In this document: one piece after another, positions 1,430-63,211 of the stretch
How the letters are laid out: every line of letters starts with the position of its first letter
Position numbering within the stretch: position 1 is the first letter of the stretch
Assembly (NCBI GenBank): GCA_963924555.1
Contig: OZ004585.1
Span: forward strand, 4,167,488 to 4,231,487
Length of the DNA: 64,000 bases
Source: Crambe crambe
Lineage: Eukaryota > Porifera > Demospongiae > Poecilosclerida > Crambeidae
Direction: 5' to 3'
Translations under genes and position numbers: made by a program
Notes under the pieces: model-generated
The model's database searches: none
What the model was told of the DNA's origin: nothing
Seen by the model: only the letters and a program-made list of their open reading frames with translations

Positions 1430-3609
1430 CAATTACAGTACTATTTTCTTGTTGAGGGTCATCAGTCAATATCACTGTTGTACTATTTTCTTCTAAATTC
1501 AATAATAGTAGCGTTCATGATAGCTATTCGAGGTTTTTAAAAATTCTGCCACTCACCAAAATTTATTACTTGAAGATATGCAGACAATGTGAAGGTAATG
1601 TTAATATAATCACTTCTTAGTGATGAAGAGACCAGATTTTGTTCCACAATGCACTGAATTGTGTAGTTTTCCATTATAAGCTCACCTGTACTGATCTCCA
1701 AGGTGGAGCTAATCATGAAACTATTGTTATTCATTTTCTCAGTTCTAATAATAGATATCCCATTCTGTTCACAGCTATCAGGACCACAAGGTGATTCATT
1801 AAATATCCACCTCACACTGATGTTACTTCCTCTAGCATTGCAATGAAAGATAGCTGTGTCACCATTTGCTACTGTCTGGGATGAAGGGGAGACCATTATT
1901 TCACTTCTCTCTAGAATATAATCAGTGTACAAAAAGTTCCACTAAAGTTGTCCTTACAAACTACATACATGTACGTAAATGTAGTTACCAATTTTCAAAA
2001 CAATGGTAGCTTTGGAACCACTTTTTTAGAACTCTCATTGTATGCTTCGATTTGGTACCAATATCTCAAAACTTGTGTTGTAAGAAATTATATTTTTTCT
2101 CAGTCATACATATAACTAAATACACACTTATCAACTTACCTAGCACACGGACCTTCATGAAAGGTCCTGTCACTTCCCACTGACAGTACCAAGGTAGAGA
2201 GCATCGTTGCATTCTTAACTTATACTGGAATACCCTCTGATCAATAGAGTCTGATATAAGTACAGAAAGGGTTCTGTTATCTTGAGAGAGCACATATTCT
2301 CTTGACTCTGTATCATTCATTAACTGCATATGATGTGAATCCACAGTTACTTGTTCCCATATTATAGTATAAAGAGTAGGCAGTGGTATGGGGCATGTCA
2401 GCATTGCATATGTATCAAGGAATACATCAGTCAAGATAGTTTCATTAGACACATTTGGAACAGCTGCATTAAGATAAGAAAACAATAATTATTTGCTCAG
2501 TCAATGTGCATGTTTCTAATTATGCTTTGGATTTAGCTATGTTGTACCATGCTTCATGTAATGGTTATAACATACCTATAGCTAATTTTAAGTCAATATG
2601 TGCACATGAGGATAATGTGATATCTAGTGCACTCGGTTACATAATGCACTCACCTTTGGCTTGTGCATATGTAACCTCATGCACTATCGCATCATCCGAA
2701 TGTGCCTCATTAAAAGACGTAAAGTATAGGCTTGACATAAGTGTTTTATTGCTGGTCACATGTCTTGGGTCTAATCAAATTTCAGTTAACTGGTGAAATG
2801 TCAAAGTTTATAAAAGAAGACTTTCAGTTCTGTAAGCACTTGGGACTGAGGCTGGAAGGCCATAGTCCAAGTGGATCTGCCTATGTACAGTATGTATCTT
2901 TACCACAAGTTCCTCAAGTGTGCAATAAAAGTTAATATGTAGATAAAGTACACTCTTCAGAGGATTTGTTGGTCACAATTAAGTCATGTAACTAGCAATA
3001 ATGTCATGTACTATACTGACTCTTGGTACATGGTACCATAGGTACCTATTGTAAGTGATATGCTAGCAATTGCTCTTTTAATATTATGTTACGTAGAAAC
3101 TGAATCCTTTGAGATCATGCAAGATCTCTTAGGGTTCTAATTCATGTTACTCAATCAGCTATGAATTTTCAACAGGTTATTAAAGCTACTGCTAAACTAA
3201 TAGCTGTAGGCAGGCACAGTTAGTAGCTAAACTGCAACACTCCTTTACATGGACTCATTAATAGCTACATATTGTGTAGATAATATTACTATCACTAACC
3301 ATAGAACATGACAGATTCAGAGTGTTCTCCTTGTATTTCACAACGAATATTAACTTCAAAATCTGCTGCAATGTCGTATGTCAGATAGTCTTCATTGACA
3401 TCTGTAGGTTGCTCCATCAATAATTCATCACTAGTATTATAAAACTTGAATCTTGCATTGGTGTCAGCCACACCACTGTCAGCAATACATTCGAGCCTTA
3501 GTACATTTGGAGCTTCCCTTGAAGGCAAGTATTGGTCCAGAGTAGGAATGCCTAGAATGACATGGATGGAGCACCAAACTAGAGTGTAGATGAACAAAGA
3601 TGCCATCAT
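1430..3609 (-). CDS. IgR1: Ig-like transmembrane receptor, 3' end off the window
   Basis: Single-pass surface receptor of the local Ig-like family, partial. Exons on the minus strand: 3609-3300 (start ATG ATG GCA, hydrophobic signal peptide, D1), 2463-2140 (D2), 1910-1557 (D3) and 1492-1430 (stalk). Each junction has GT/AG borders and keeps phase 1. D1 has a Cys pair (LEC and IRCE). D2 has LTC, a Trp about 15 residues later and further cysteines (MQRCSLPWYC). D3 has IFHC, VRW and YTIQC, the usual Ig Cys-Trp-Cys spacing, plus the extra PCGPDSC loop. Several N-x-S/T glycosylation sites are present. The membrane and cytoplasmic exon is not in the window. Because the left-hand intron matches those of IgR5 and IgR9, the missing end is probably the long tail. 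The stalk exon is followed by a partial tandem copy of itself (1376-1425). Ligand unknown. Confidence 0.85.
2590..2715. repeat. Imperfect hairpin in intron 1 (IgR1 copy)
   Basis: The two halves are imperfect inverted repeats, centred on ggttacataatgcac and gtgcatatgtaacc near 2634-2673 with weaker pairing outward. The same block is in intron 1 of IgR2 (about 7290-7400), IgR9 (about 55.92-56.03 kb) and IgR10 (about 62.2-62.3 kb) and absent from intron 1 of IgR3, IgR5 and IgR6. It looks like an old short inverted-repeat element inherited through gene duplication. Confidence 0.5.
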
Positions 3610-13130: not shown

Positions 13131-15206
13131 GAGATCTTTCTCATTTCAGATAGAGAGACGTGCATGCAGACTAGCATTGACTTATTATCCTAAATGGAGC
13201 AATTACGTATAGCATCACATGATGCAATATGTCATATATGGTATGAATAGCGGAATGGTTTATATTGTATATTCAAAAAAGCTTATCATATAGCTACATT
13301 ACATGCATGCATGTGTTTTATACACACAAGCAGTCATTGTCAATATGTTAACAAGTTCTCTAAAATGGAACTGACCAGTTTAAAAAAAAATCTCTATGCA
13401 GTAAACAGTGAAGTATTTTAATGACAAAAAATAATGAGTAAACAATTAAAGTTGTTGTGCATAACTAGGGACACGAATCTCCATGTCTTCATAGTTGTGA
13501 TGGCAGACTTGATTTGCTGCTGCATAAGCAGGGCATTGTGTAAAGCTGTATGTGGTAGGAGTAGCTATTTCTTCATAATATGACTGTGCTAGGTACAGAT
13601 TCTACTTCAGTTTCAGGCACATTCAATTGAACATGAGCTTTTCTTGACTTTTCTCTAAAATAGTGTTCATAAATAATATTGATTGAGCGAACTTTCCAAT
13701 ATAGTTATAATTATAGACAACTTACCCTAAATCTGTGCATTGCTTACGAGCGATTAAAATTCCGCCAGCTAAGAAAACAGTTATTGTAGGAAGAGTACCA
13801 GCTACTCCAATCACAATGCCTGTATACGTAATTCAATAAGATATGACTGAAACTTGGCTATCCTACCTTCTTCCAGACAAAATTCTCCACCCCCATCCAC
13901 ACACACGCACGCATGCACACACTTATGCATATTGTCATTTAATGGGGAGTGCAGCAAGAAAACATTGGTGAAACCGTAATACAGAAAAAAAAATTCCATC
14001 ATACTACACTATTTTAGATAATAGTGTCTGGTAAGTGGTCACTCACTTATTCCTGGATTATGTCTTAGCTATTACAGTAAAATTTTCTTGTTGAGAATGC
14101 ATGGTAAATGTCACTGTCATGCAGTTGTACCATTTTCTTTTGAGGATCCACCATCGAAGTCACCATTTGACTTCTCCATGATACAAAATAATAGCATTCA
14201 TGATAGTTAATAAGAGTTATTTTTTTAATTAAGACACTCACCTAAATTTAATATTTGAAGATATGCAGACAATGTGATGGTAATGTTATTACTATTTCCC
14301 CTTATTGATGAAGTGACCAGATTTTGCTCCACAATGGTATAGTTTTCCATTATAAGCTCACCAGTACTGATCTCCAAGGTGGAGTTAATCATGAAACTAT
14401 TATTATTTTCTCTCTCAGTTCTATTAATAGATATCCCATTCTGTTCACAACTATCAGGATCACAAGGTGATCCATTAAATATCCACCTCACACTGATGTT
14501 ACTTCCTCTAGCATTGCAATGAAAGATAGCTGTGTCACCGCACACTACTGTCTGGGATGAAGGGGAGACCATTATTTCACTTCTCTCTAGAATAATAATT
14601 ATTATAAGTGTATAATAGTTCCACTAAAACTGTTAGAGCCGTACAAGCTACATAAAAATTTAGCTACAATAGATGGTAGCTTTGGAACCAAATCTATATA
14701 GTTTGGAATAGATCTTTCTTGGAACTGTCATTAATTTTTATTCTCCAATTTGGTGAATTGTGTTTTTTTTCTCAGTCATGCACACACAACTTACTCAGCA
14801 CACAGACTTTCATGAGAGGTCCTGTTATTACCCATGCACTGACAGATCTGAGGAAGAGAACATTGTTGCATTCTTAACTTACATTGGAATGCCCTCTGAT
14901 CAATAGAGTCTGATATAAGTACAGAAAGGGTTCTGTTATCTTGAGAGAGCACATATTCTCTTGTCTCTGTATCATTCATTAACTGCATTCGATGTGAATC
15001 CACAGTTACTTGTTCCCATTTTATAGTATAAAGAGTAGGCAGTGGTATGGGGCATGTCAGCATTGCATATGTATCAAGGAATACATCAGTCAAGATAGTT
15101 TCAGTAGACACATTTGGAACAGCTGCATTAGGATCAGAATTATTTCAGTCAAGTGCATGTCTGATTTATGCTTCAGGTTTAGTAGCTACCTATAGCTAAC
15201 CTATTC

Positions 15207-15507
15207 TTGCTTATACTTTATTGTCATGCAGTGCTCAGGATAAGAGCATCGTTGCATTCTTAACTTACACTGGAATGTCCTCTGATAAATAGAGTCATAT
15301 ATAAGTACAGAAAGGGTTCTGTTATCTTGAGAGAGCACATATTCTCTTGACTCTGTATCATTAACTGCATTCGATGTGAATTCACAGTTATTTGTTCCCA
15401 TCTTATAGTATAAAGAGTAGTAGGCAGTGCTATGGGGCATGTCAGCATTGCATATGTATCAAGGAATACATCAGTCAAAATAGTTTCATTAGACACATTT
15501 GGAACAG
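15207..15507 (-). pseudogene. Supernumerary D2 exon in IgR4
   Basis: A second D2-like exon sits just upstream (minus strand) of the main D2 of IgR4. It keeps the acceptor and the LTCP...WEQ core. A 4-bp deletion near 15360 shifts the frame, and the 3' part encoding WEVTGP...VLG with the splice donor is missing. It shows local exon duplication within the array. Confidence 0.8.
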
Positions 15508-16090
15508 CTGCATTAAGATAATTATTGTTTGCTCAGTCATGTGCATGTGTCTAATTTATATGCTTAAAAATAGATTTAGCTATGTTGTAACCTATTCTTG
15601 CATGCTTGTACTTTATTATCATGTATGCTGATTCTTGGTACATAGTTATGTAGATATGTGATATGTTAGCAATTGCTTTGTATAGTGCCTTATTAAACTT
15701 GCTCTTTCGGTATGTTACAGTACTATGTATGTATGATGGACATTACATATGAAACTGTATCCATTGGGATTATGCAAGATTCACATTAATCATCCATGTT
15801 ACTTAATCAGCAATTTTAAACAGGCTATTAAAGCTATAGGCACAGTTAGTAAACTGCAATGCTCCTTCATCGTGTTAAAAAATTTAATGGTATACATTTA
15901 GCTAGCACTATAACCATTGAACATAACTCTTAGGGTTTTAATTCATGTTTGTAAATCAGCTAGCTCTATGACATCACAATTTTGAACAGCTAGCTATACT
16001 GCTAAACTATAGGCACAGTTAGTAACTAAACTGCAACACTCCTTTACATGCTCTCATTAATAGAATTTGTGTACGTAGATATTATAGCCT

Positions 16091-16169
16091 ATCACTAACC
16101 ATAGAACATGACAAATTCAGAGTGTTCTCCTTGTATTTCACAACGAATATTAACTTCAACTAACTAACT
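16091..16169 (-). repeat. Partial duplicate of the D1 exon 3' end
   Basis: About 70 bp matching the end of D1 and its donor (ccatagaacatgac... to attaacttcaa) lies just left of the true IgR4 exon 1 end at 16229, followed by an actaact-rich stretch. It is too short to be an exon on its own. Confidence 0.7.
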
Positions 16170-16538
16170 AAATAACTTCAATAGATTGTGTAGATATTAT
16201 AGCTAGCATAATTATCACTATCACTAACCATAAAATGCAACATTTTCAGAGTGTTCTCCTTGTATTGCACAATGAATATTAACTTCAAAATAAGCTATAA
16301 TGTCGTATGTCAGATAGTCTTTATTAACATCTGTAGGTTGCTCCATCAATAACACATCACTAGCATTATAAAACTTGAATCTTGCATTGGTGTCTTGAAC
16401 ACCACTGTCACTATAACATTCAAGCCTTAGTACATTTGGAGCTTCCCTTGAAGGCAAATAATAGTCCAGAGTAGGAATGCCTAGAATGACATGGATGGAG
16501 CACCAAACTAGAGTGTAGATGAACAAAGATGCCATCAT

Positions 16539-18107: not shown

Positions 18108-21100
18108 CTAGTCCACAGGGTACATCATTGAAAAATCAAATGGGGGAATTTCAGGAGCTCCCTCTTCTTGCTCAGAAGTGATTTTTTCTGTAGAGTCCAG
18201 AATATAATCTGTAACTTGACATTTCGGCTTTGTTTTTTTATCAATGACTGAATAGTTGGGATCACATGTGTCTGATACTGGATCATTCAGTTCTAACTGA
18301 GGCCTTTTCTTCATGCTGCTGACTACATTGCTGTACATTTCATTGCCAGGGTCATTTAATTCAAGTGCATTTGATTCAAGTGTGTCTAACTCTCCATAAT
18401 CACTACTTCTGGGTGGTACCTTTGGCTTCTTCTTATCCACGATGGCATATATTAAGCAGTCATCATGAGTGGATTTCTCGGCAGTTTTTTTCACAGCAGT
18501 TTTGGTGGACTTTTTATTTACTGCAGAATAAATATGGGAAGGATCCCATGTTTCAGAACCCTTTTGCATTTGAGTTTCCTTCTGCACTGAAACATCACAT
18601 GGTGTAAGGTCTATTTCTTCATAATTGCTTGCAGCATTTGCAAATGTCTTCTTTATCACTGTAGCAGAGTGGGAGTCATCCCTATTATCAGATGCATACT
18701 TTCTCTCAACTTCATAATGTACTGGAGGAAATTGATTAATACATTGTGCATCTTTAAATGATATTACTGCACTATAATTTGGATCATTGTCTGTAATCTC
18801 AAAATCTTGGTTAGATAAATCTTCACGAGTTTCTCTGTTTTCCAATTCTGTAGCAGGAAGATTTTCAGTTACATTCGGTGTTGATGTTATGCATACTCCA
18901 GTATCGTCCTTGACGTCAGTTTGAATGAGATATAGTCTACATAATGTTATTGAACTGATAATACTAATAATTGTTAGTAATAGAAAAGCTCCAATTCCAA
19001 CTCCAACTCCAATTCGTATTACTACAAGTATTGATGAGTCTAGAAAAGTAATAATTGATATAATTATAATTATCATGTAAACAGGTACAAATACTTAACT
19101 CTGTTACTCTTTGAATTAATCTATTCGCTAAAACAATAATTATTCAGAGAGAGACTAAATATAGGGATTGTGGAATAATACTATCCATACATCTGATTCA
19201 TGCCTATTTTAACCTTTAGCGTATACGTATTAGAACCTTTACCATATGCGCGTGCATGTGCAAGCCATATCAGTACCAGTGAACTATTAGCTAAAGCGAT
19301 ACAGTAAATACAGAAAGTAAAGGTCTTTTAAAAAGTAAACAAACTAGTGAAAGGGGAAAAAATTATGTTAATAAAAAGTCCATGTAGGGTTAGTCTGTAT
19401 AGCAGTTTCTGTGAACAAACATCAAAATTATGCTGCCTACATCACTGCCTAAACCAAGCACAACTGACATGAGCAATTAAAGCAGCTTGGTGGGAGGTAG
19501 TGATGTAGGGATTATATATTATTGAAGGCAGCATAATTTTGATGGAAACTGCTATACAGACTAACCCTTTTTATTTAGCATAATTTTTTTCCCTTCACCT
19601 TCAGCCAACCTTTACCAATGTTTACACTAGTTACCATTAATTGACCATGCACACTGTGAAACTGTATAAATTAACTGGTTCACAAATAATTATCTTCAAA
19701 CTACTACAGGGATGCCCCAGCAATGGAGTTTCTCAGAATTAAATATGATAGCTGCAACAGTCTTAGACAAATTTGTGTGCAGTAAACACTTTCATATTTA
19801 CTTTTACAGTGTATGAATTACGTAATACTGTTTTCTAACTCCGTGTTATCCTATCATCTAAATTTTATGCTACATAAGATTTATTATCAGGGATGGCATA
19901 GCCGATCCAAACATAGTGGAGCTAGAAAAAATGATTCTGCCCCCAAGAGAGCGCAAAGCGCAGAAGTAATCAGTATAATGATGAGCTTCGAGTGTCATTG
20001 CTTTCTTGCAATATCTCTTCTTTATGTGGGTACCGTACGTAAATCATCATAGCAGTATAAGAAAGTGGCCCCCCAGCCCCCCCCCCCTGATTATAGTCAG
20101 AAAATGCATCTGTATTGTCAGCTGACATTAATTTCTCTGGACTGAAAATTATAGGAAAAAAATAATGGAAGGTAAGTTATGAAACACATAATCTAGACAT
20201 GAAGTAATGCCCAATTTTTTTTCCTACAGAGGAGTAATTGATAGGAGTGTCATAAGGAACTATCAACCCACAAAAGAAGAGGATTGTGTTGTCTGTAACT
20301 CTTTCTGTCTTCCTGGGTTTTAGACTTTTTTCCCACCTTTGCTGGGAGAGGGCAGCCTCTCTCTCCCTTTTCTTTTTTCTTTTTGTCTTGTGTGAAATCA
20401 CAAAAATCTTTGTCCAAGTGTTCTGACTTGATTTACAGAGTCTGGGATGCACTGGGCTGGGAGGAAATTACCTCAGTGGACTCTGGGGATTGGGGATTAC
20501 TAGATGTTTACAACAGGTTGTTACATGTAGACACCAAAGGGAGCAATTAAGGACCAATTTTGGGATATTTCAGAGTGGTAAGCATTTTTGGCTTTGCGCT
20601 ATGCACAGGAGGGGGCACATCCCCCTCCCCTCACTGTGGCCTATGGCCATGTGATTGGTGAGCTTCCTCCCCAAGGTGAAATTCCTAGATGAAACCCTGT
20701 TTAGTTGGCTAAAGCAATTGACTTTATAAAGACATACATACGTAGACTGAGAAATGTGAGTTCCAGCACACAGTAATTCCATGCAAAATATATAGTTTAA
20801 ATTTTTCCATAGCTAGCTAGCTACATATAATGGGATTTAGAATAATGAATCTTCAGTCTGTCCATCTATCCAATAAGCTATGCATATCATAGTCCTTCAA
20901 GTATGAGAGGTCAATTGAAATGGTACTTTTGGAACACAGCCAAGTAGTCAACATATTTGACAGCTGCCTAACCACTCTAACTTGGAAAAAAAGAGCCACT
21001 AAGTGTGGTAACTAGCTAGCAACACTATTATGGACCAACAGTCGGTTTGTATTATAATAATGTGATTAGAATCCTATATCTATGCACTCAAAATTGACTA

Positions 21101-37663: not shown

Positions 37664-37693
37664 CATTTGGCGACGAGGATAAAAAGAAGGTCT

Positions 37694-41617: not shown

Positions 41618-41645
41618 CTGACATCATATCCTACAGGGGGGGATG

Positions 41646-44770: not shown

Positions 44771-45196
44771 TTAATTTCTTTTATCATTCACTCCATAAGC
44801 TAAACATTGTTGGATTTTATCATCATCCTCATGGACATCTAGATAACTGCAAAGTTTTATGTCTTCATACTCATGATGACAAGAATTAGCCACTTCATTA
44901 GAGTGAGGATTTTGCTTTGTTTTTAGCTGAATTTGACTGAACCTGTGCATTCCTAGATTCTTGTCCTAATCTGAAAAAAAAAATTGTTAAACCTATAATA
45001 GCTAGTTCTACACATATATAATAGGCATGTAAACAGAGAGTGTGTTCTACCCGAAGAGAAAAAACTCAATATGAATACAATCATAATACATGAGCTAGCT
45101 AGCTATACTCTAGTTTAGGGCGTGCTTCAGTCCTTGTTCTAACTAGCACACGAATGTTAGCTCATGAAGGCTCTTCTGTGTGCACTATTTTCAAAA

Positions 45197-45300
45197 TGAT
45201 GCCAGCCCCAGGCGATTTCATGAGTAATTATTATATTTAGCTTCACACGCAAGCAATAATAATAACTGTGCATGAAATTGCCTGGGAATGAGGCTAATCT
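45197..45300. repeat. Small foldback element in IgR8
   Basis: agccccaggcgatttcatg and catgaaattgcctgggaatgaggct form imperfect inverted repeats about 50 bp apart, in the intron between membrane and tail exons of IgR8. Confidence 0.55.
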
Positions 45301-46367: not shown

Positions 46368-47536
46368 GTAGAATATAGCGCAAAATAGCGCACAATCTAA
46401 CAATAATCGCGTTATTACACGTATCAACTCCTTTCAACTCCTTTTATCGCGCTACAAAATACGCGCAATGCATCAACGTAAAAACGTGCGAAATCGCGGA
46501 AATCTGTGTATAATCGAATTCCATTATTAAAAAAAAAAAAAAAAAAAAAAAAAATGTAAAAAAAAAGAAAAAAAAAAGGAAATCTGTACGCGTACGCGCA
46601 GTGGCTTTACTTTTTTTTGGTGGATTTTATTTTTTTGTTGATATGGCCTTGGCTAATCTCTTTACCATGAGCGACAAAAATATTTTTTTCACCAAATTAT
46701 CGGACTAAACTTCGCGAAAATGCGCGATTGAGCGCAGTGTGCACTGCGCGTTAATGTGCGCTAAACGGCGCTCTTACGCGAATTTACGTGGCCATAATAA
46801 CACGTAATCCGCGACTTTTTACGTGAAATGACGTTATGATGTAATAGATAGACATGTGATATAGACCTCATGCTATGTAGACATTGGAAAAGAAATTAAA
46901 GAATCCATTATAATCTAGTCAATGGTGGATGTCAGGGTTTTCAACCCCTTCGCTCCTTCAAACAGCAGCTCCACCCTTGACAACTGCTACACCAAACATG
47001 AGCGTGAGAAAATACGTGCTTATGGACGTCGGGTAAGAGATGTTGAACATGCTACTTTCGTCCCTCTAGTGATGTCTGCAACTGGTGGTCTCGCCAGACA
47101 AGCGACCAATTTCTACAAGCGACTGGCATCCCTCCTCGCAGACAAGTGGATGCAACCCTACAGCACCACTTGTACTGGCTGCGCTGTTCACTATCCTTTA
47201 GCTTACTCCGTTCAGCCATCCAGTGCATACGGTGCACGATCTTCAAGAGGTCATGCTGTGAAACTTTCACCAGTTGATCTGGTGACTGCAGAGGCCCTTC
47301 GACCCGATCCATTCCATCATCCAGTGCATGCATGCAGTGAGGACTGAACTTTTCTGTTTTTTTGCTTTTTTCTCTTGCTTTAATAATCAATATATTTCTT
47401 CCTATTCTCTCCCTCATTTCAAAATTAAAATTACTAATTCGTTCAAAAAAAAACAAAAAACGTTACTACGCGTCGATTTTGACAGCGAATTAACGCATTA
47501 TTACGCGCTATATCGCGCGAAGTTCGATACGGATAG
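46368..47536. mobile_element. CpG-rich insert with imperfect inverted ends in IgR8 D2
   Basis: The ends ccgtgtagaatatagcgc (left) and, inverted, ccgtatcgaacttcgcgc (right) match at about two thirds of 33 positions. The ends and flanking 400 bp are unusually rich in cg and cgcg words compared with the depleted surroundings. It contains an A-rich run (46526-46578) and a LINE-like ORF fragment. It interrupts D2 just after the codons for the T-I-L-T-D region. Class uncertain; target duplication unclear. Confidence 0.6.
46922..47344 (+). pseudogene. LINE-like ORF fragment (C-terminal part)
   Basis: 141-codon open frame. F-N-P-F-A-P-S-N-S-S, the K-H-E-R-E-K-I-R-A-Y-G-R-R-V-R-D-V-E-H motif and F-Y-K-R-L-A-S-L-L-A resemble the region after the reverse transcriptase in non-LTR retrotransposon proteins of marine invertebrates as I know them. 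No RT catalytic motif is present, so this is a fragment. The trailing part after about residue 95 appears shifted out of the usual frame. Confidence 0.55.
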
Positions 47537-47567
47537 TAGTTTGATTAGACACTGTTGGGATAGCTGC

Positions 47568-49925
47568 ATTGAGATTAATCTAAATTTTGGCTGAATTAAT
47601 AATTATATGGCATGTGACTACTAGCTACATAGCTACTGACTGAGGAGCAGGGCAACTGGGGCACTCACCCAAGTAAAATTTTCATGGAATCAGTTCCAGA
47701 TCAATTAATTAGCTATAGTGGCAAGAGTTATAGTCATTATTACTTGCGGCCAAACAAGTACACAGCCCCACCAAATCCAAAATCCTAGCTACTCTCTTGA
47801 CTTATTCAATGCTGGCTGAGGTACCAGATGAGATTGGTTTTGTGTGACATTAATGGGTATTTCAATTAATTAGCTATAGTGGTACGTCTGTCAGAGTTTT
47901 GGGGGATGAGATATTCTACTAGAGAAATGCAGGGCATTGTGGGGGGAGCCTGATTTGTCAATGATTATTGGTAGTCTGGATTGAATGAGAATATAAATTA
48001 TGTACACATGATGCTGGAAGTAAGAGTAGCTAGGTAAGAGCTGGAAGTAAGTAAATTATATACACATGATCTCTCACATAATATAATGCCCAATATTATA
48101 AGAATGTTAGGTTTTTATTATTTTCTTGGATACCAGTATCTGAGGTATCTGAGTATCTTTTTCTAAATACTATAGGCACTAGTATAGTTTAAATAGCTGT
48201 ACTACTATAGGATTGACTAGGTGTCCGTTATTTGGATTGCTATAGGTGTATAGGGTAGGTGTGGGTATTATGAGTCAGCTAAGTATTGTTGCTCTTTTCT
48301 TGGAAACGGACTATCTTAGGATCCTGAAAATTCCTCCAGATATAAAATAGGTTATGTAGAACTAATGTGTGGAGAAAGTAAGCATCTTGTAGATAGGAGT
48401 TATTATCTTACATAACATACTCAGGAAGGTATTATGAGTCGCTGGCTTGATTTTTGTCTCTAAAAATTGATAATGTAGCTAAGATTTCTACAAAATAAAA
48501 ATAATAACCTTAGATTACTTAAGAATTCTCCATCTTGTGGCATCGTTGCTTCCTTGCGCTTTTTTTATTCAGATTGGTTACGATTGTACCCATTTTAAAA
48601 CTTCTCATTAAAAATTATGTTTATGCATGAATGAGGCATTTTCTGGATGATTTTATTTGATCAAAAGACCAAAAAAATGATTAAGTTTTCATATCTAGAG
48701 TATCAACTCTTGTAGATTCTTATCAAGTGGTGAACCCATAATAGGGATTGACTCATAATACCCACACCTACCCTAGGTCTTCGTTTCGGACCTAGAACCA
48801 TGCAGCATCTGCCCCTAAGGGTTTGGCTAAGGCCGGACTGCTAGATGTCCGTTATTCCGATTGCTAGGTGTATAGGACTTTTTGTTTGGTTTTCGGACCT
48901 AGAACCAGCATCTGCCCCTAAGGGTTTGGCTAAGGCCACAAGAGAATATGATTATTACAGGGCTTATCCTTATTACATAGGTGTCTGTTATTCAGATTGC
49001 TATAGGTGTCAGAGATTTTCATAATACCTCCAGATACCAGATACTTTCAGATATACCTCCAGATACCTCCAGATACCTCCAGATACCTCCAGATACCCCC
49101 AGATACCTACAGATACCTACAGATACCTCCAGATACCTGCAGATACCTCCAGATACTTGTACATACCTCCAGATACCTGCAGATACTACCCCCAAATACC
49201 TGCAGATACCTGCAGATACCTCCAGATACTATATTATATAGCTATACATTCATAACTATTTTCTTCCAATTCTTGCATCAATGAGCAAGTATAATATAGA
49301 ACTTGAATAAATTATGTTGACCAAAAACAGCAGCAAGACATGCATATACAGTAGGAGAAAACACATCAAAAGTTAGCTCTCCGCAAGGTCGGAATTACCA
49401 AGACCCGGCCAGACTACTGCGACAAATTCCAGTTCCACAATGGGGGGAGAGAGGAGCAAAACATACAGCCTTCAAGATACTGAACCAAAATCCTGAAAAT
49501 ATAACTGAGAATAGTGAACGTTGGCTGATTTCCCTGGCCAAACTCCTACACCTAAAACCAGATTGGTTTCACATCTCCCATTTCTGGAGTGCTTATTACT
49601 AAGGGAAAGATGTAATATTATTATCATCACACTACACATGATTCATGCCTTGAGAGTTATCTAGCTAGGAGATACCTTGTAGAAATAACTGTTAAATGTA
49701 CATATCAGAACAACTTGGGATAAGAGGTAAAAAATTAATGAAGCCTCTATCTATGTGTACTGTAGTGACTATAGTGATGGGTAAATGAGGTTGTTACCTT
49801 TTGAGGTGAGAGCTACATACAAAGCTTAGCTACATTATACATGCATGAGACATACGTAGCTATAAACTATACATGCATGAGACTATCATTCCACAGCGTA
49901 TAATATTGGATGTAACTATACCATA
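47568..49925. other. Intron 1 of IgR8 with low-copy repeats
   Basis: No exon. A motif around taggtgtccgttattcggat occurs three times (about 48217, 48845 and 48963). A roughly 48-bp block (ttcggacctagaaccagcat to ggctaaggcc) occurs at about 48784-48833 and 48893-48937. The decanucleotide minisatellite is listed separately. Confidence 0.6.
49024..49233. repeat. Decanucleotide minisatellite (agatacctcc)n
   Basis: About 20 tandem copies of a 10-bp unit agatacctcc with variants ending ctac, ctgc or cccc. The open frames across it (Ser-Arg-Tyr-Leu-Gln-Ile-Pro-Pro-Asp-Thr repeats) are repeat artefacts. Confidence 0.92.
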
Positions 49926-50228
49926 AAACACGACAGCCTCAGAGTAATCTTCTCCAGTAGTACAGCGAACACTGGCCTCAAAATCTTCAGTTATGTGAAG
50001 TAGTCCTCATTGACATCTGTAGATGTATTTCTGATAAATACACCCATACTGTCATTAAACTCAAATCTTGCATTGGGGTCAGCCAAATCACCATCTGGAT
50101 TAATACACTGGAGCTGGAATATATTTGGAGCTTCCTTCAATGAAGGTCCAAAACAGGAGTCCCCAAGACAGAACAAAAAAAACAAAAAAAAAAAAAACAA
50201 ACACAGAGGTTATAAGCAAAGATGCCAT

Positions 50229-51841: not shown

Positions 51842-53370
51842 CTAGTCCACAGGGTACATCATTGATAAATCAAATGGGGGGATTTCAGGAGCTTCCTCTT
51901 CTTGTTCAAAAGCTGTAGAGTCTGGAATATAATCTGTGACACTACTTCTGGGTGGTACCTTTGTCTTCTTCTTATCCACAACGGCATATATTATGCAGTT
52001 ATCGTGAGTGGATTTCATGGCAGTTTCTTTCACAGCAGTTTTGGTGGATTTTTTGTTTACTGCAGAATAAATATGGGAAGGATCCCATGTTTCAGGACCC
52101 TTTTGCATTTGAGTTTCCTTCTGCACTGAAACATCACATGGTGTAAGGTCTATTTCTTCGTAATTGCTTGCAGCATTTGTGAATGTCTTCTTCATCACTG
52201 TAGCAGAATGGGAGCAATCCCTATTATCAGATGCATATGATTTCTTCTTTCTCTCGTTATGTACTGGAGAAAATTTATCACCACATCGGGTACCTTTTAA
52301 TGATGTTATAGTGCTATAATTTAGATCATTCTCAGTAATCTCAAATTCTCGGTTGGATAAATCTTTATAAGTTTCTCCGTTCTCCAATTCTGTTGCAGGA
52401 AGATTTTCAGTTATATTCAGTGTTGATGCTATGTATACTCCAGTCTTGTTCTTGACATGAGTTTGAATGAGATATAGTCTAAACAATATTATTATTGAAC
52501 TAATAATTGTTAGTAATAAAAAAGCTCCAATTCCAACTCCAACTCCAATTTGTATTACTACAAGTATTGGAAAAATAATATTTGATATAATTATAGTTAT
52601 CATGTAAATAGATACAAATACTTAGCTCTGTTACTCTCTGAATTGGGGAACACTAATTTTATTAGCTAAAAACCATAATTATTCTAAATATAGGGATTGT
52701 GGAATAAATGCTGTCCACACATCTGATTCACACCTATTTAACCTTTAGCCATGTATTAGAACCTTTACCAACCTTTACCACATGCACGTGCGCATGCAAG
52801 CCATATCAGCCATATCAGTACCAGTGAACGATTAGCTAAAACGATACAGTAAATAAACTAAAGGTCATTAACTAAAGTTGATACAGAAAGTAAAGGTCTT
52901 TTAAAAAGTAAACAAACAAGTGATGGGAAAAAATTATGCTAATAATTATCTTCAAACTACTACAGAGAAGGGAGTTTCTCAGAATTAAGTATGATAGCTG
53001 CAACAGTGTTAGACAAATTTGTGTGCAGTAAACACTTTCATATTTACTTTTACAATGTATGAATTACGTAATACTGTTTTCTAACTCCGTGTTATCCTAT
53101 CATCTAAATCTTATGCACTCATAAGATTTATATGCTGTATTATCAGGGATGGCACAGCCGATCCAAACGTGGCGGAGCTAGAAAAATGATTTAGTTTAGT
53201 GTGCCCCCAAGAGAGCGCAAAGCGCAGAAATAATCAATATAATGATGAGCTTCGAGTGTCTTCATGCGATCATTGCTTTCTTGACATTAATTTAATCCAG
53301 CCTGTCTCTTAGCAGGGTTCATCTAGGGGGGGGGGGGCACAGGGGAAGCTTCCCCCCAAACAGCTCAATT

Positions 53371-53402
<32 letters not shown>

Positions 53403-56400
53403 TATTAAATAGATATTTTCTAGGCTACTCCCTTTGGTGACCACAGGTTGTTACATGTAGTCACCAAAGGGAGTAATTAAGAACCAATTTGGGATACTTC
53501 GGAGTAGTAAGCATTTTTGGTTTTGTGCTTTGCACAGGAGGGGGCACATCCCCCTCCTCTCACTGTAGCCTATGGCCATGTGATAGGTGAGCTTCCTCCC
53601 CAAGGTGAAATTCCTAGATGAAACCCTGCTTAGTTGTATGGCTAAAACAATTGATTTTATAAAGACATACATACGTGGACTGAGAAATGTGAGTTCCAGC
53701 ACACAGTAATTCCATGCAAAATATGTAGTTTAAATTTTTCTATAGCTATATATAATGGGATTTCGAATAATGAATCTTCAGTCTGTCCATCTATCCAATA
53801 AGCTATGCATATTATAGTCCTTCAAGTATGAGAGGTCAATTGAAATGATACTTTTGGAACACAACCAAGTAGTCGTTGATATTAACAAATTTGATGGCTG
53901 CCTAACCACTCTAATTTGCTACTGGCTAGAAAAAAAGAGCCACTAAGTGTGGTAACTAGCTAGCTACACTATTATGGACCAACAGTCGGTTTGTATTATA
54001 ATAATGTGATTAGAATCTTATATCTATGCATTCAAAATTGACTACTTAGGTAGGTATTAATTTGATTATACAGCAGAGTTATTAATTGAATTCACCCAGA
54101 CTCTTAATTTTCATGTGAGCATGTGGTTACTTGTAATTATGAAATTTTTATTTATTATCTTGGTCATGTTCAATAGTGAAAATTAATCACATGAAATAAT
54201 TACCTTGTAAAAAATAGTGTGAAAGCTAATTACAAGTAAGTAAGCTGTAACAACGGAAATAAATTAACATGAAATTGTAAACACAAATAATATCTAACAA
54301 AAATTTCCCTATTTCTTGTAGTTCAGATCAAATACCCATGGGCTCTTTAGCTTAACAAGAATGGTGGCTGGAAGGGGGGACTAATGAATCTAGTTTTTTC
54401 TCCAATCTCACTGAGCCTTAGTATTGATATAGAAGTATACTGAGACCATGGTCCTTCACACTACAGTGGCATAGGAATATGTTTTACTATTAGGGGGGCA
54501 CCAATTTTTTGGGGGGTACAGCTGACTGTGTGGCACAGCATGGAGAAGGGATGTGCATAAATAGCTATTATACCACAACCAGCTATGGTATTATGGGGGG
54601 GGGGGGGGGGGGGGAGGGAGGGGCTCCAGCCCTCAGAACCCTCCATTCCTACACCACTGCACTATAGGCAAATTGCTAGCTGTATAACTCACTCTTAACT
54701 ACATTTAGTGAATTACATGCATCTTACCAATTACAGTACTATTTTCTTGTTGAGGGTCATCAGTCAATATCACTGTTGTACTATTTTCTTCTAAATTCAA
54801 TAATAGTAGCATTCATGATAGCTATTCGAGGTTTTAAAAAATTCTGCCACTCACCAAAATTTATTACTTGAAGATAATATGCAGACAATGTGAAGGTAAT
54901 GTTGATATAATCACTTCTTAGTGATGAAGAGACCAGATTTTGTTCCACAATGCACTGAATTGTGTAGTTTTCCATTATAAGCTCACCTGTACTGATTTCC
55001 AAGGTGGAGTTAATCATCAAACTATTATTATCTACTCTCTCAATTCTATTAATAGATATCCCATTCTGTTCACAGCTTTCAAGACCACAAGGTGATTCAT
55101 TAAATATCCACCTCACACTGATGTTACTTCCTCTAGCATTGCAATGAAAGATAGCTGTGTCACCATTTGCTACTGTCTGGGATGAAGGGGGGACCATTAT
55201 TTCACTTCTCTCTAGAATAGAATCAGTGTACAAAAAGTTCCACTAAAGTTGTCCATACAAACTACATACATGTACGTAAATCTAGTTACAATGAATCCAA
55301 TTTTCAAAACAATGGTAGCTTTGGAAACTTTTTTAGAACTCTCATTGTATGCTTCGATTTGGTACCAATATTTTAAAACTTGTGTTGTAGGAAATTATAT
55401 TTTTTTCTCAGTCATACATAGCTAAATACTTATACCTATTACACTTATCAACTTACCTAGCACACGGACCTTCATGAGAGGTCCTGTCACTTCCCACTGA
55501 CAGTTCTCAGGAAGAGAGCATCGTTGCATTCTTAACTTACACTGGAATGCCCTCTGATCAATAGAGTCTGATATAAGTACAGAAAGGGTTCTGTTATCTT
55601 GAGAGAGCACATATTCTCTTGACTCTGTATCATTCATTAACTGCATTCGATGTGAATCCACAGTTACTTGTTCCCATTTTATAGTATAAAGAGTAGGCAG
55701 TGGTATGGGGCATGTCAGCATTGCATATGTATCAAGGAATACATCAGTCAAGATAGTTTCATTAGACACACTTGGAACAGCTGCATTAAGATAAGAAAAC
55801 AATAATTATTTGCTCAGTCATGTGCATGTGGCTTTAGATTTAGCTATATTGTACCATGCTTCATGTAATGGTTATAGCATGCCTATATAGCTAATTTTAA
55901 GTCAATAATTATGTGCACATGAGGATAATGTGATTGCTAGTGCACTCGGTTACATAATGCACTTGCCTTTGGCTTGTGCATTATGTAACCTCATGCACTA
56001 TCACATCATCCGAGTGTGCCTCATTAAAGACACAAAGTTAGCTATAGGCTTGTCATAGCTAAGTGTTTTATTGCTGGTCACATGGTGAAATGCCAAAGTT
56101 TATAAAAGAAGACATTCAGTTCTGTAAGCACTTGGGACTGAGGCTGGAAGGTCATAGTAAGTGGATCTGCCTATGTATCTTCACCATGAGTTCCTCAAGT
56201 GTGCAATAAACGTTAGAATGTATTCAGAGGATCTGTTGATCGCAATTAAGTCATGTAACTAGCAATAATGTCATGTACTATGCTGACTCTTGGTACATGG
56301 TTACATAGGTACCTATTGTAAGTGACATGCTAGCAATTGCTCTTTTAATATTATGTTACGTAGAAACTGAACCCTTTGAGATCATGCAAGATCTCTTTGG

Positions 56401-56894
56401 GTTCTAATTCACTTTAATCATGTTACTCAATCAGCTATGAATTTTAAATAGGTTATTAAAGCTACTGCTAAACTAATAGTTGTAGGCAGGCACAGTTAGT
56501 AGCTAAACTGCAACACTCCTTTACATGCACTCATTAACTACATAATTGTGTAGATATTATAGCTAGTATATTATTACTATCACTAACCATAGAACATTAC
56601 AGATTCAGAGTGTTCTTGTATTTTACAACGAATATTAACTTCAAAATAAGCTGCAATGTCGTATGTCAGATAGTCTTCATTAAGATCTGTAGGTTGCTCC
56701 ATCAATAACACATCACTAGCATTATAAAACTTGAATCTTGCATTGGTGTCAGCCACACCACTGTCGGCAATACATTCGAACCTTAGTACATTTGGAGCTT
56801 CCCTTGAAGGCAAGTAATAGTCCAGAGTAGGAATGCCTAGAATGACATGGATGGAGCACCAAACTAGAGTGTAGATGAACAAAGATGCCATCAT
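51842..56894 (-). CDS. IgR9: three-Ig-domain receptor with shortened long tail
   Basis: Predicted 588-aa type I membrane protein. Exons: 56894-56588 (signal, D1; 1-102), 55780-55457 (D2, 103-210), 55211-54855 (D3, 211-329), 54790-54728 (stalk, 21), 52557-51842 (membrane span and tail, 351-588). The tail starts with I-G-V-G-V-G-I-G-A-F-L-L-L and has NYSTI, NYEEI, HIYSAV and I-I-Y-A-V-V. It lacks about 66 residues compared with IgR5, losing the S-D-Y-G-E-L, MYSNV and NYSVI motifs in frame. It keeps the conserved PPF...MMYPVD end. The PKVPPR SH3-type motif of IgR5 is TKVPPR here. It is most like IgR1 in its introns. A signalling receptor with fewer docking sites is the likely reading. Confidence 0.85.
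52558..54727. other. Long intron of IgR9 (stalk to tail)
   Basis: No exon. It shares blocks with the introns of IgR1 and IgR5. It contains long C and G homopolymers (C run about 53369-53398, G run about 54595-54615) that differ in length from the matching runs in IgR1 and IgR5. Confidence 0.65.
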
Positions 56895-58536: not shown

Positions 58537-59873
58537 TCAATTTTTCTTAGTAGTCACTCCATAAGCAGAACATTGTTGGATCCTAATATCACCCTCATGT
58601 GAAGTAGCTGGGACATCTAAATCACAAATCTTCATGTCTTCATAGTTGTGATTGCAGGAATCTGTGACTTGATTTGCTGCTGCATAAGCAGGGCATTGTG
58701 TAAAGCTGTATGTGCTGGAAGGAGCAACAATTTCTTCATATATGACTGTGCTAGGTACAGATTCTACTACAGTTTCAGACGTATTCAATTGAACATGAGC
58801 TTTCCTTGATCTTCCTCTAAAGAAGTGTTTCAATATAACATTGAGCAAGCTCATTATAGACAGCATATGTACCTTAAATCCGTGCATTGCTTACGAGCAA
58901 TAAAAAATTTAAAGATTCCACCAGTTAACAAAACAGTTATTATAAGAAGAGCACCAGCTACTCCAATCACAATGCCTGTACAATTCAATTGAAACTTGGC
59001 AATTCAACCCTCTTCCAGACAAATGTGACAGTACTTGGGAAAAGGTACAACATTAAAAGCTGTTAAACTCTTGTAAAGTTTACAAGCTACATATAAAATG
59101 TACAAGAGATGTAAAATTCAATTGAGTATAACTCAGGAACAAAGTGGTGCATAAATTTGATTTAAAAGCCATGTAAATCTCCAGATTAAGAACTTTAAAA
59201 TGATACCAATAACTCAATTTTGAATTTTTGAGCGAAAAGGTACCTTTTCCCAAGTAATGTCACAAATTTCTCCACTCCCTCTCTCTACACACACACGTAC
59301 ACATGCACATGTATGTGCGTAAACACACAAACATACATACTCTCTCTCATTCTATCTGTATACCCACACTGCTAAACAAATATATAGATGCAACCAAGAA
59401 ATATTACGTAATTACTCCACAGTATACCCACAGACTAATACATCATGCATAAGTGAACATCTGCAAGAAAGAAACGTAATCTTCAGCCATCAGGTACATA
59501 ACTCATCCCTACTAGTTACATTATTCTGTTACTAGCTAGAGTAGATAAAGATGACCAAAAAAAAAAAAAGACTGGAGTGCTACTCTTAAAAAAAAGACAC
59601 TCTACAAAGCAGAGACTCTCTAATTCACGTGATAACCAATTTAATGACAAGTGCACTAATAACACGAATCTAGAACCTTCCCTTTTCGTAGCTGACTCTG
59701 GGTCAGGAAATTAATGGGACAGAAACCCAATGATAGGATTGGGTTCTTTGATAACTGTACCAAAATTACTGAGTATTAGGCTATAAAATTATAACATGGT
59801 TCCAATTAGCAGCACAGTGGACAAGATCATTTCCAAAGTTTCATATTTTGTTTCAGCTTTGAAACCCCCTCAA

Positions 59874-59925
<52 letters not shown>

Positions 59926-60452
59926 GGATGAGCTGGAGGGTTTAAGCTCCGTCAGTTGCCGCCACGTAAGAGGGTTGCTGCCACCAGGATTCTGTCTATG
60001 GCCCCAGCTAGTTTTACCCAGCGCAGGATCAGGAATAGAATAAATTATTATTCACTTGAGTAAGATAAAAATCAACTGACAGAAATGAGGTGGACACTTT
60101 TATACCCTTCACCTCGTCAAACTAAACATAGTAACACACACTATAAATAGAACTGCTGTGGAAGGTTCTGGAACCTGAGTTCGTCAACACATACAACATA
60201 TTCACACACACATAAGACATTGATGAGAGGTGACACAATAATGATTAGAACATGCAGGAACAAGGATTAACACATACACATGATGATACAGAATTACACG
60301 AACATAAAGGGCATGTGGTGATTACAGAATTACATACATACATAGATACATACATTCATTACACATGGTGATACAAAATTATACACATACACATGTACAT
60401 TCCCCTACATCGTACCGCCATGGGTCACCTCACGTGGAGGCTGTCCCTCCAC

Positions 60453-60532
<80 letters not shown>

Positions 60533-60767
60533 CCAAAATGCAAATCATTTAGCTGCCGCTGAGTGGTCATGCGCACCTGGTCAAGCCAGGATGCAGGTAC
60601 CCATTTTCAGCTGGGTGGACTGGTGGCATGGTGTTAGATGGATATTCACAGCAAATTAATGCTGGTGAAAAGGAGGATGGATAAACACCATTATGTCACT
60701 GGTGGGACTCGAACTCACAGTCTCCCGCTTACAAGCCCAGAGTGCAAACCACTCACTACCAGTGACT

Positions 60768-60833
<66 letters not shown>

Positions 60834-63211
60834 CAGGCTGATTAGAAGCTATGTACAACAATTTCCCTACTGTATGGTCCCTCAACTTTGATGTCAGGCA
60901 ATTATTATTCCTCTAATTATTGGTTAGAAATATATAGCTAGTTATACTCAATTTTGCTTTTTGAATTATTATGACTTACCAATTATAGTGAAATTTAGTT
61001 GTTGAGGATCCAGAATAAATGTCACTGCTGTACTATTCTCACCTACATGTACGTAGTAAAAGATGCATGGATTCAGTATAAAGAAGGTAGCATTCCGAAT
61101 TTCATGATATATTTTCTTTAAAAATTCTGCCACTCACCTAAATTTAATTCTTGATGAGGATACGCAGACAATGTGATGGTAATGTCAATATTATCTCCCC
61201 TTAGTGATGAAGAGGTCAGATTTTGCTCCACAATGCACTGAATTATGTAGTTTTCCATTATGATGATATTAAGCTCACCAGTACTGATCTCCAAGGTGGA
61301 ATTAATCATGAAACTATTATTATTTATTCTCTCAGTTCTATTAATAGATATCCCATTCTGTTCACAGATATCAGGACCACAAGGTGATCCATTAAATATC
61401 CACCTCACACTGATGTTACTTCCTCTAGCATTGCAATGAAAGATAGCTCTGTCACCATTTGCTACTGTCTGGGATGAAGGGGAGACCATTATTTCACTTC
61501 TCTCTAGAATATAATCAGTGTATAAAAAGTTCCACTAAAGTTGTCCTTACAAACTAGCTACATAGCTAGCTACAATGAGTCCAATTATTAAAACGATGGT
61601 AGCTTTGGAACCACTTAATTTAAACTCTCATTGTTTGGTACCAATATCTCAAAACTTGTGTAATTCTTTGTGTAAATTATATATTTTTTCTCAGTCATAC
61701 ATAAATACCTGTACCTATACTTATCAACTTACCTAGCACACGGACCTTCATGAAAGGTCCTGTCACTTCCCACTGACAGTTCTCAGGAAGAGAGCATCGT
61801 TGCATTCTTAACTTACACTGGAATGTCCTCTGATCAATAAAGTCTGATATAAGTACAGAAAGGGTTCTGTTATCTTGAGAGAGCACATATTCTCTTGACT
61901 CTGTATCATTCATTAACTGCATATGATGTGAATCCACAGTTACTAGTTCCCATATTATAGTATAAAGAGTAGGCAGTGGTATGGGGCATGTCAGCATTGC
62001 ATATGTATCAAGGAACACATCAGTCGAGATAGTTTCATTAGACACATTTGGAACAGCTGCATTAAGATAAGAAAACAATAATTATTTGCTCAGTCAATGT
62101 GCATGTTTCTAATTATGCTTTGGATTTAGCTATGTTGTACCATGCTCCATGTAATGGTTATAACATACCTATAGCTAATTTTAAGTCAATACGTGCACAT
62201 GAGGATAATGTGATATCTAGTGCACTCGGTTACATAATGCACTCACCTTTGGCTTGTGCATATGTAACCTCATGCACTATCGCATCATCCAAATGTGTCT
62301 CATTAAAAGACGTAAAGTATAGGCTTGTCATAAGTGTTTTATTGCTGGTCACATGTCTTGGGTCTAATCAAATTTCAGTTAACTGGTGAAATGCCAAAGT
62401 TTATAAAAGAAGACTTTCAGTTCTGTAAGCACTTGGGACTGAGGCTGGAAGGTCATAGTCCAAGTGGATCTGCCTATGTACAGTACGTATCTTTACCACA
62501 AGTTCCTCAAGTGTGCAATAAAAGTTAATATGTAGATAAAGTACACTCTTCAGAGGATTTGTTGGTCACAATTAAGTCATGTAACTAGCAATTATGTCAT
62601 TACTATACTGACTCTTGGTGCATGGTTACATAGGTACCTATTGTAAGTGACATGCTAGCAATTGCTCTTTTAATATTATGTTACGTAGAAACTGAATCCT
62701 TTGAGATTATGCAAGATCTCTTAGGGTTCTAATTCATGTTTCTCAATCAGCTATGAATTTTAAACAGGTTATTAAAGCTACTGCAAAACTAATAGCTGTG
62801 CAGGCACAGTTAGTAGCTACGTAAACTGCAACGCTCTTTTACATGCACTCATTAATAGCTAACTATATAATTATTGTGTAGATAATATTACTATAACTAA
62901 CCATAGAACATGACAGATTCAGAGTGTTCTCCTCGTATTTCACAACGAATATTAACTTCAAAATCTGCTGCTATGTCGTATGTCAGATAGTCTTCAGTGA
63001 CATCTGTAGGTTGCTCCATCAATAACTCATCACTAGTATTATAAAACTTGAATCTTGCTTTGGTGTCAGCCACACCACTGTCAGCAATACATTCGAGCCT
63101 TAGTACATTTGGAGCTTCCCTTGATGGCAAGTAATGGTCCAGAGTAGGAATGCCTAGAATGACGTGGATGGAGCACCAAACTAGAGTGTAGATGAACAAA
63201 GATGCCATCAT
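58537..63211 (-). CDS. IgR10: three-Ig-domain receptor with short tail
   Basis: Predicted 481-aa type I membrane protein. Exons: 63211-62902 (signal, D1; 1-103), 62056-61733 (D2, 104-211), 61503-61138 (D3, 212-333; four residues longer than usual near GELNIIIMENY), 61042-60980 (stalk, 21), 58975-58873 (membrane exon, 103 nt: three extra codons giving IFKFFIARKQC), 58816-58537 (tail, stop). Junctions are GT/AG and the summed lengths stay in frame. The tail carries V-I-Y-E-E-I and Y-E-D-M. D2 and its intron are very close to IgR1. The stalk-membrane intron is expanded to 2 kb by CA repeats, a SINE-like unit and a MITE. It is the short-tailed partner of IgR9. Confidence 0.86.
59024..59264. mobile_element. 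241-bp MITE-like element in IgR10 intron
   Basis: Terminal inverted repeats tgtgacagtacttggg and, inverted at the right end, tgtgacattacttggg, extending through aaaaggtac on both sides (one mismatch). Flanking DNA (cttccagacaaa / tttctccac) is contiguous in paralogues at 5.87 and 13.87 kb, confirming insertion. No ORF. Confidence 0.75.
59874..59923. repeat. (CA)n microsatellite
   Basis: About 50 bp of uninterrupted CA repeats. Confidence 0.95.
60454..60831 (-). mobile_element. tRNA-derived SINE-like unit between (CA)n tracts
   Basis: On the minus strand, from about 60769 to 60697, the sequence begins ggagtcactggtagtgagtgg and includes tgagttcgagtcccacc. These fit the A- and B-box elements of a tRNA-type polymerase III promoter. 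gtcactg and cagtgac at the two ends can pair as an acceptor stem, and the loop cttgtaa would give a TGT (Thr) anticodon, but the anticodon stem pairs poorly. An unrelated body of about 170 bp follows (tgaaaatgggtacctgc), ending in a (TG)n tract at 60528-60454. This is the layout of a tRNA-derived SINE. A second CA tract (60769-60831) borders it. Confidence 0.55.

Follow-up and report, generated by a model that had tools for sequence, protein, structure and literature searches.

Vertebrate paired receptors, such as those of the KIR, LILR and SIRP families, are encoded by clustered genes in which near-identical immunoglobulin (Ig)-like ectodomains are placed on different tails, the long tail bearing immunoreceptor tyrosine-based inhibitory motifs (ITIMs), with sequence exchange and pseudogenes in the clusters. 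Among sponge molecules, the adhesion molecules of Geodia cydonium have a long and a short form, few genes and two Ig domains, and the aggregation factors are secreted proteoglycan-type molecules, not Ig receptors with signalling tails. We know of no described array or tyrosine-motif tail pair for the Geodia molecules, of no two-tail scheme in the Alr family of Hydractinia, and of no identified receptor of sponge self/non-self recognition. Here we describe a family of receptor genes of the sponge Crambe crambe, studied from a window of 64,000 nucleotides (C8:4167488-4231487 of assembly G000; "the window" denotes this whole stretch). Judged from the sequence, resemblance to paired receptors is the best supported reading of this family, and a role in allorecognition is plausible.

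The closest invertebrate systems come from allorecognition. The Hydractinia Alr family comprises ~40 clustered Ig-superfamily genes, including potential pseudogenes, for which ITIM motifs and immunoreceptor tyrosine-based activation motifs (ITAMs) are reported, as are homophilic binding and polymorphism for Alr1/2 (PMC11876637, PMC12065747, PMC11999971). In Botryllus, the fuhc FF and FcoR genes are reported to lie adjacent at tens of loci; their long tails bear ITIMs as well as core tyrosine motifs (Y-x-x-I/L/V), and SHP/Src/Syk machinery is expressed. The cnidarian and tunicate loci are described there as carrying unrelated receptors that converge on ITIM-type signalling (PMC12065747). Sponges are said to discriminate self from nonself with remarkable specificity (PMC5450542), their aggregation factors have been linked with allorecognition (PMC12065747, PMC5450542), and a further article refers to an Ig-like adhesion molecule of Geodia (PMC11999971).

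We searched the 143,139,886-base assembly, one haplotype in 119 contigs, by tblastn with the three ectodomain exons (D1, D2 and D3) and two kinds of tail, long (L) and short (S). The window held ten D1-D2-D3-stalk units, all on the minus strand and each with an L or an S tail (IgR7 had no D1 match), which bore out the preliminary description of ten single-strand copies of a shared exon set. In the 5′ to 3′ direction, from high to low coordinates, the order was S (IgR10), L (IgR9), S (IgR8, broken), S (IgR7, broken), S (IgR6), L (IgR5), S (IgR4, broken), L (IgR3), S (IgR2) and L (IgR1). Two genes were read exon by exon: IgR2 (S; six exons, 486 aa) and IgR3 (L; five exons, 638 aa), both in frame with GT-AG introns. 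Their exon junctions are in phase 1, with the sole exception of the S-type junction between the transmembrane (TM) and tail exons, which is in phase 2.

The L and S genes have ectodomains in common. Tail type agreed between a unit and its nearest paralogue in 9/22 units for D1 (10.6 expected by chance) and in 10/23 for D2 (11.0 expected), as against 19/23 for D3 (11.0 expected, P=0.006). The difference of between-type and within-type distances gave P=0.91 for D1, 0.84 for D2 and 0.003 for D3. Both tests include damaged units; b4 was not in the D1 test, and u05, which has no tail, was in neither. The likeness of D1 and D2 is independent of tail type, and that of D3 tracks the tail. Direct comparisons agree with the mixing of classes: IgR5 (L) and IgR6 (S) are 95% identical over 2.7 kb, their likeness stopping 13 bases past the stalk exon; between u04 (L) and IgR10 (S), identity is 94% up to 21 bases past D3; IgR1 (L) and IgR10 (S) reach 91%; and IgR3 (L) and b6 (S) are 97% identical through D2, dropping to 85% across D3. 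The 5′ parts of such L/S pairs are thus 91-97% identical, with the likeness ending past D2, D3 or the stalk. This pattern calls for L and S genes to have exchanged sequence several times. We read the L and S genes as one common 5′ cassette joined to differing 3′ cassettes. A common 5′ part with two tails makes them paired receptors in the structural sense, and this signal is stronger than the alternation of tails treated below. Because the ectodomains are common to both tail types, the likeness to paired receptors is strengthened. The earlier proposal of clustered Ig-like receptors with differing signalling tails is supported.

The receptor family extends far beyond the window, which holds only a small portion of it. 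D1 gave 102 matches genome-wide (some are pieces of one exon): 84 fall within ~2.6 Mb of C8, from 3.9 to 6.6 Mb, and the rest on other contigs. L tails numbered 26, only one of which lies off C8, and S tails 68, of which 34 lie off C8 (25 on C6). The single L tail elsewhere (L023, C20:3625685-3626509) is 64% identical to that of IgR3 and stands downstream of fibronectin III (FN3) exons, which matched Pfam fn3 at 5.5e-11 as two exon pieces joined manually. The genome-wide D1 search found no match on C6 despite the 25 S-type tails there, and an FN3 search for their carrier, among the best 150 of 2146 candidates, gave no answer. Three sister genes on C8 (L047, L048 and L046, at 4.83, 4.87 and 5.88 Mb) have an L-type TM exon that is truncated and, after it, a last exon of S type; in L047, which was read closely, the phase-2 donor and acceptor match, predicting a composite L+S tail. 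Because an L tail sits on an FN3 gene, S tails occur on C6 and composite tails are predicted, the tails behave as modules.

The composite genes also bear on the idea that S and L are alternative ends of longer transcripts, with adjacent units spliced together into one gene. The phase-1 ectodomain junctions would permit such cross-unit splicing, and the sister genes offer a precedent for joining the two tail types. Each complete unit, however, has its own signal-peptide exon, full ectodomain and stop, and our tblastn and exon searches found no window unit with both tails, so that we regard this explanation as highly improbable.

Further observations were made on the wider family and its surroundings. 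Twenty S-type tail matches, 37-48% identical, cluster at C6:7739204-7914499, with no D1 match. In u07 (L049, C8:4257797-4258477), D2 and D3 form one open stretch, the D2-D3 intron of its sisters being missing. A second block of the same receptors (C8:4493278-4548018) has parts 94-97% alike to parts of the window array and may represent either a segmental duplication or a retained haplotype. Among the matches listed, large arrays with Ig, fibronectin III and/or tyrosine-phosphatase exons close together were seen at C9:2.3-3.5 Mb, C12:0.07-0.39 and 2.5-3.2 Mb, and C13:3.59-3.87 Mb, as would be expected of expanded receptor tyrosine phosphatases.

The preliminary description had the intact copies alternating between long and short tails. 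Locally, this stands: with IgR7 and IgR8 dropped, the window shows 8 runs in 8 units (P=0.029 against random orders; all P values for order are uncorrected). With all ten units included, there are 8 runs in 10 (P=0.118), and the nine all-exon units just upstream of the window, in the order SSSLLSSSL (4 runs, P=0.89), do not alternate. The 22 tails of the 4.14-4.33 Mb core gave 16 runs vs 11.6 expected (P=0.037), in a series that includes damaged units and in which tails several kb off were joined to ectodomains by order alone (4315040 with 4304647; 4158331 with 4150786); the 18 all-exon units among them gave P=0.22. These tests covered the window and the upstream core, array B (b1-b6) being in none of them. 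Left out were three incomplete S matches (C8:4325551, 4303748 and 4267694), one surplus S tail (4244868), two second copies of L (4284482 and 4234353) and the tailless u05. On the order tests in and beyond the window, the two tails are interspersed and strict pairing is only local.

Two blocks have close copies elsewhere. IgR5-IgR4 (L-S) and u06-u07 (L-S) have 8.2 kb in common at 98.2%, and IgR2-IgR1 (S-L) and b2-b3 (S-L) have 7.4 kb in common at 94.6%; next to these, the tail regions of IgR3 and b1 are 96.3% alike. Given these duplicates, the local alternation was probably at least partly inherited via duplication of two- and three-gene blocks, and looks like a footprint of that process, not a rule. 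Strict L/S pairing as the organising rule was rejected on the order outside the window, and the earlier claim of a locus made of long/short gene pairs is not supported, since the outside order does not alternate and the local one fits block duplication. It is very probable that the alternation is a by-product of tandem multi-gene duplication, with no function of its own; the block copies and the upstream units both speak for this, although duplication accounts for the order and not for the ectodomains staying common to both tail types.

The two tails differ in length and motif content. L tails have ~205-270 cytoplasmic residues, and S tails ~90 residues with five tyrosines and a TM exon of their own. 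The ITIM consensus [SIVL]xYxx[ILV] was scored against shuffled tails in 16 of the 23 units with a tail, tails with internal stops having been dropped. All eight open L tails carried 3-4 motifs vs ~0.4 in shuffled tails (P 0.0005-0.011). VIYEEI was found in 8/8 open S tails, and a second ITIM-like motif in two. The tyrosines of NYEEI and YSxV were invariant in the 14 L rows (12 distinct), down to a relative 43% identical. The mean conservation of tyrosine columns in S was 0.973 vs 0.830 for the rest; the tail alignments contain duplicates (2/14 L rows, 3/15 S rows). The constant VIYEEI and four other tyrosine positions suggest that the S tail is not signalling-dead. We also considered an adaptor-coupled activating receptor, read from an Arg early in the L membrane segment, and rejected it; at this third TM position, L tails have R in 6/9 and Q in 3/9.

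Possible readers of the L and S tails are encoded elsewhere in the genome. A candidate gene at C18:6539084-6540942 has two SH2 matches followed by a protein tyrosine phosphatase match, the SHP order, and a Src-type candidate on C15 has SH2 and kinase matches. Separately, an array of many SH2 exons, many of them paired a few hundred bases apart, was observed at C5:1417826-1656255; among the matches listed there was no phosphatase and one tyrosine-kinase gene, and the array may reflect an expanded set of proteins that are SH2-only or of adaptor type. At C16:4976850-6050423, we found an array of at least 26 tyrosine-kinase matches, most in long open frames.

We propose, with moderate confidence, that these genes encode type I membrane receptors of the sponge, a family diversified in the germline and acting as paired receptors, in which one pool of ectodomains is interchangeable between two signalling tails. 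The three-domain ectodomains would be kept interchangeable between L and S, and both classes, if expressed as predicted, would bind identical or closely related ligands, borne by neighbouring cells or by microbes, and the cell could thus compare two outputs. The L tail, phosphorylated by Src-family kinases on its 3-4 ITIM-like motifs, would recruit tandem-SH2 phosphatases of the SHP type and give an inhibitory output. The S tail, with VIYEEI and its four other tyrosine positions, would engage a different SH2 partner (Src or an adaptor), with an activating or modulatory output. Tandem and block duplication, together with L/S exchange bounded where homology ends (behind D3 or the stalk), would renew the repertoire.

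Several observations weigh against this proposal. D3 scored above the Pfam cut-offs for Ig_3 and I-set, but D1 and D2 had no Pfam match, so an Ig-type assignment by Pfam holds for D3 only. D3 also matched PKD, and no Pfam match other than Ig-type and PKD was found. In searches of PDB chain sequences, D2-D3 gave weak Ig matches (myosin-binding protein C over D3, E 0.0003; basigin over D2, E 0.008), D1 gave only unconvincing ones, and no chain named Alr was among the matches of either. Since D1 did not match a D2-D3 profile, it may be called Ig-like only by its position and cysteine pair. The structure model of D2-D3 was all beta, at modest confidence (mean predicted local distance difference test score, pLDDT, 62.7). 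One further L/S pair, u10 (L) and u08 (S), was 93.4% identical over 3.5 kb in a single comparison, whose repeat gave no alignment, with a gap in the u10 sequence. The tyrosine columns of L were only slightly more conserved than the rest (0.897 vs 0.849), and the ITIM excess of S tails over shuffles was not significant for the six one-motif tails (P ~0.2; 0.017 and 0.028 for the two-motif tails). A conserved charge was looked for in the S TM core and not found. Because the S tail retains a motif of ITIM consensus and its TM core is without a conserved charge, the S class is not an activating partner as in vertebrate paired receptors; L and S may both be inhibitory, or both adhesive. Finally, no gene-wide diversifying selection was seen among paralogues. 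The ratio of nonsynonymous to synonymous differences (pN/pS, bootstrap range in parentheses) was 0.49 (0.31-0.77) for D1, 0.83 (0.52-1.40) for D2, 0.62 (0.40-0.95) for D3, 0.48 (0.27-1.03) for the S tail and 0.66 (0.50-0.89) for the L tail, point estimates all below 1, though the D2 range extends to 1.40. The sets comprised 23, 21 and 23 units for D1, D2 and D3, and five S and eight L tails; they include damaged copies with an open exon, and the D2 estimate is made noisier by IgR4 and b4, through their codons past a frame break.

These ratios bear on whether the array is an allorecognition locus proper, in which some or all receptors would tell self from other individuals of Crambe and govern whether fusion or rejection follows, as do Alr in Hydractinia and fuhc/FcoR in Botryllus. 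With its size and clustering, its ITIM-bearing tails, its broken copies and the exchange among them, the family has the expected appearance, and ITIM-bearing receptors are reported to sit in the Hydractinia and Botryllus allorecognition loci (PMC12065747). We nevertheless consider this reading doubtful, given pN/pS of 0.49-0.83 for D1-D3 and given that the words "immunoglobulin" and "receptor" occur 0 times in the main text of an Amphimedon graft transcriptome study (PMC5450542). The same anatomy would serve the recognition of microbes or symbionts. That the genes are innate immune or symbiont-recognition receptors, a germline repertoire directed against microbes and not at allorecognition, is a tentative alternative. 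It is in keeping with the expanded SRCR and NLR immune repertoires that have been described for sponges, and the intact and broken copies and the block duplication fit birth-and-death evolution; the tail architecture, however, is uninformative about the ligand.

It is also conceivable, if unlikely, that the products are adhesion molecules that hold tissue together or sort cells homophilically; their tyrosine motifs would couple to Src and the cytoskeleton, and the two tails would be housekeeping variation. YEEI, a classic Src SH2 ligand, is present in both tails. Sponge Ig-superfamily molecules have been linked mainly with adhesion and intercellular recognition (PMC11999971). The multi-ITIM L tails argue in the opposite direction, and from general knowledge the copy number, pseudogenes and exchange would be atypical of housekeeping adhesion genes.

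Compared with the described systems, the sponge family resembles KIR, LILR and SIRP in its clustering, in ectodomains common to two tails, in the ITIM-bearing L tail, and in exchange and pseudogenes. It differs in the partner class: the sponge S tail has an ITIM-like motif (8/8 open tails), and its TM segment offers an ITAM adaptor no conserved charged residue. Beyond the generic Ig signature in D3, no kinship in sequence to KIR, LILR or SIRP was found. With Botryllus FF/FcoR it has in common the many loci, adjacent genes and long tails of ITIM type. The FcoR ectodomain is reported as a V-type Ig, a sushi and two C2 Ig domains (PMC12065747), whereas the sponge units have three domains, and Pfam gave no sushi match in D1-D3, unlike the FcoR architecture. 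Each FF gene is described as adjoining, and co-expressed with, its cognate FcoR (PMC12065747); in the sponge, similar ectodomains carry two tails. On the vertebrate partner class and the FcoR domains, then, the family does not appear to belong to KIR/LILR/SIRP or to FcoR. It has clustered Ig-type genes with ITIM-like tails, as does Alr, and its Ig-like surface proteins of differing length recall the Geodia cydonium adhesion molecules. Unlike the aggregation factors, the units have TM and tail exons, and their Pfam matches are only Ig-type and PKD.

The window units are listed in Table 1. The IgR2 and IgR3 models served as templates for eight window units (all but IgR7 and IgR8) and 16 units outside it. 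Template boundaries fell on AG/GT in most exons; the window exceptions are all in IgR4, and outside the window at least one boundary was off AG/GT in u04, b1, b3, b4 and x1. By template, IgR2, IgR3 and IgR10 are complete, and IgR5, IgR6 and IgR9 are open with slightly different ends; the IgR6 stop comes two codons earlier than that of IgR2, and IgR6 is near-identical to IgR5 from D1 to the stalk. The preliminary description had rightly taken IgR7 and IgR8 for two broken short copies (IgR7 has a frame break in D2, IgR8 a stop in D3), but IgR4, which it had as intact, has frame breaks in D2 and the tail, a duplicated D2, stalk sites that are not GT-AG, and a 9-base loss in D3 that removes the second cysteine. 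The long tail it inferred for IgR1 does exist, ~1.5 kb beyond the window, yet it stops early. As IgR4 is broken too, complete frames are limited to IgR2, 3, 5, 6, 9 and 10, plus IgR1 with a truncated tail.

Table 1. Receptor units of the window (positions within the window unless prefixed C8).
Unit	Tail	State	Extent	Strand	Exons and remarks
IgR1 (w1)	L	ectodomain open	1430..3606	-	D1 3300-3606, D2 2140-2463, D3 1557-1910, stalk 1430-1492; TM+tail C8:4165398-4166003, ends early
IgR2 (w2)	S	complete, 486 aa	5362..8276	-	exons 7970-8276, 6836-7159, 6265-6618, 6101-6205; TM 5706-5799; tail 5362-5638
IgR3 (w3)	L	complete, 638 aa	9745..13127	-	exons 12821-13127, 11957-12280, 11547-11900, 11408-11467; TM+tail 9745-10616
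IgR4 (w4)	S	broken	13409..16535	-	D2 twice, 14839-15126 and ~15228-15505; frame breaks in D2 and tail
IgR5 (w5)	L	open to stop	18108..23530	-	D1 23227-23530, D2 22419-22739, D3 21831-22184, stalk 21704-21766, TM+tail from 19021 down
IgR6 (w6)	S	open	30921..33752	-	D1 33449-33752, D2 32640-32963, D3 32024-32377, TM 31247-31340, tail 30921-31188
IgR7 (w7)	S	broken	34821..42343	-	no D1 match; D2 42009-42343 with frame break; D3 pieces 37165-37425 and 35946-36173; S tail 34821-35117; Ty3-like element inside
IgR8 (w8)	S	diverged, broken	44774..50152	-	D1 pieces 49920-50152, D2 46048-46275, D3 45654-45995 (contains stop), S tail piece 44774-44902
IgR9 (w9)	L	open to stop	51842..56891	-	D1 56588-56891, D2 55457-55780, D3 54855-55211, stalk 54728-54790, TM+tail ~51862-52557; tail with internal deletion
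IgR10 (w10)	S	complete	58537..63208	-	D1 62902-63208, D2 61733-62056, D3 61138-61503, stalk of L kind, TM 58873-58975, tail 58537-58816

The Ty3-like retroelement inside IgR7 (37476-41835, plus strand) has a long pol-type frame and 190-base terminal repeats that are 99% alike, so its insertion is recent. Between IgR5 and IgR6, an element at 24605-30367 (plus strand) encodes a reverse transcriptase and matches a tyrosine recombinase weakly (E 0.002, short of the Pfam cut-off); from its gene content, we take it to be of the DIRS/Ngaro type.

Among the titles and abstract beginnings listed on sponge or invertebrate Ig, allorecognition and ITIM, mostly from non-subscription literature, no sponge array of this kind was described. 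For Crambe crambe, a chromosome-level genome and a deposited second haplotype are reported (PMC12166358), and a named locus for fusion tests is now available. The second haplotype has the accession GCA_963924525.1. A bolder proposal, which we think rather unlikely, would make these genes the receptor side of sponge allorecognition, with multi-ITIM and one-ITIM tails as movable 3′ cassettes put on a recombining ectodomain pool and on other receptor types (the FN3 receptor with an L tail, the S-type tails on another contig), and with paired signalling arising in Porifera independently of chordates. A sponge family this large, with ITIM tails and interchangeable ectodomains, would extend the convergence on ITIM signalling to Porifera. 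As a cluster in which interchangeable ectodomains appear to be carried on two unrelated signalling tails, and which can be likened to the vertebrate paired receptors, it seems a promising place to seek sponge cell recognition.

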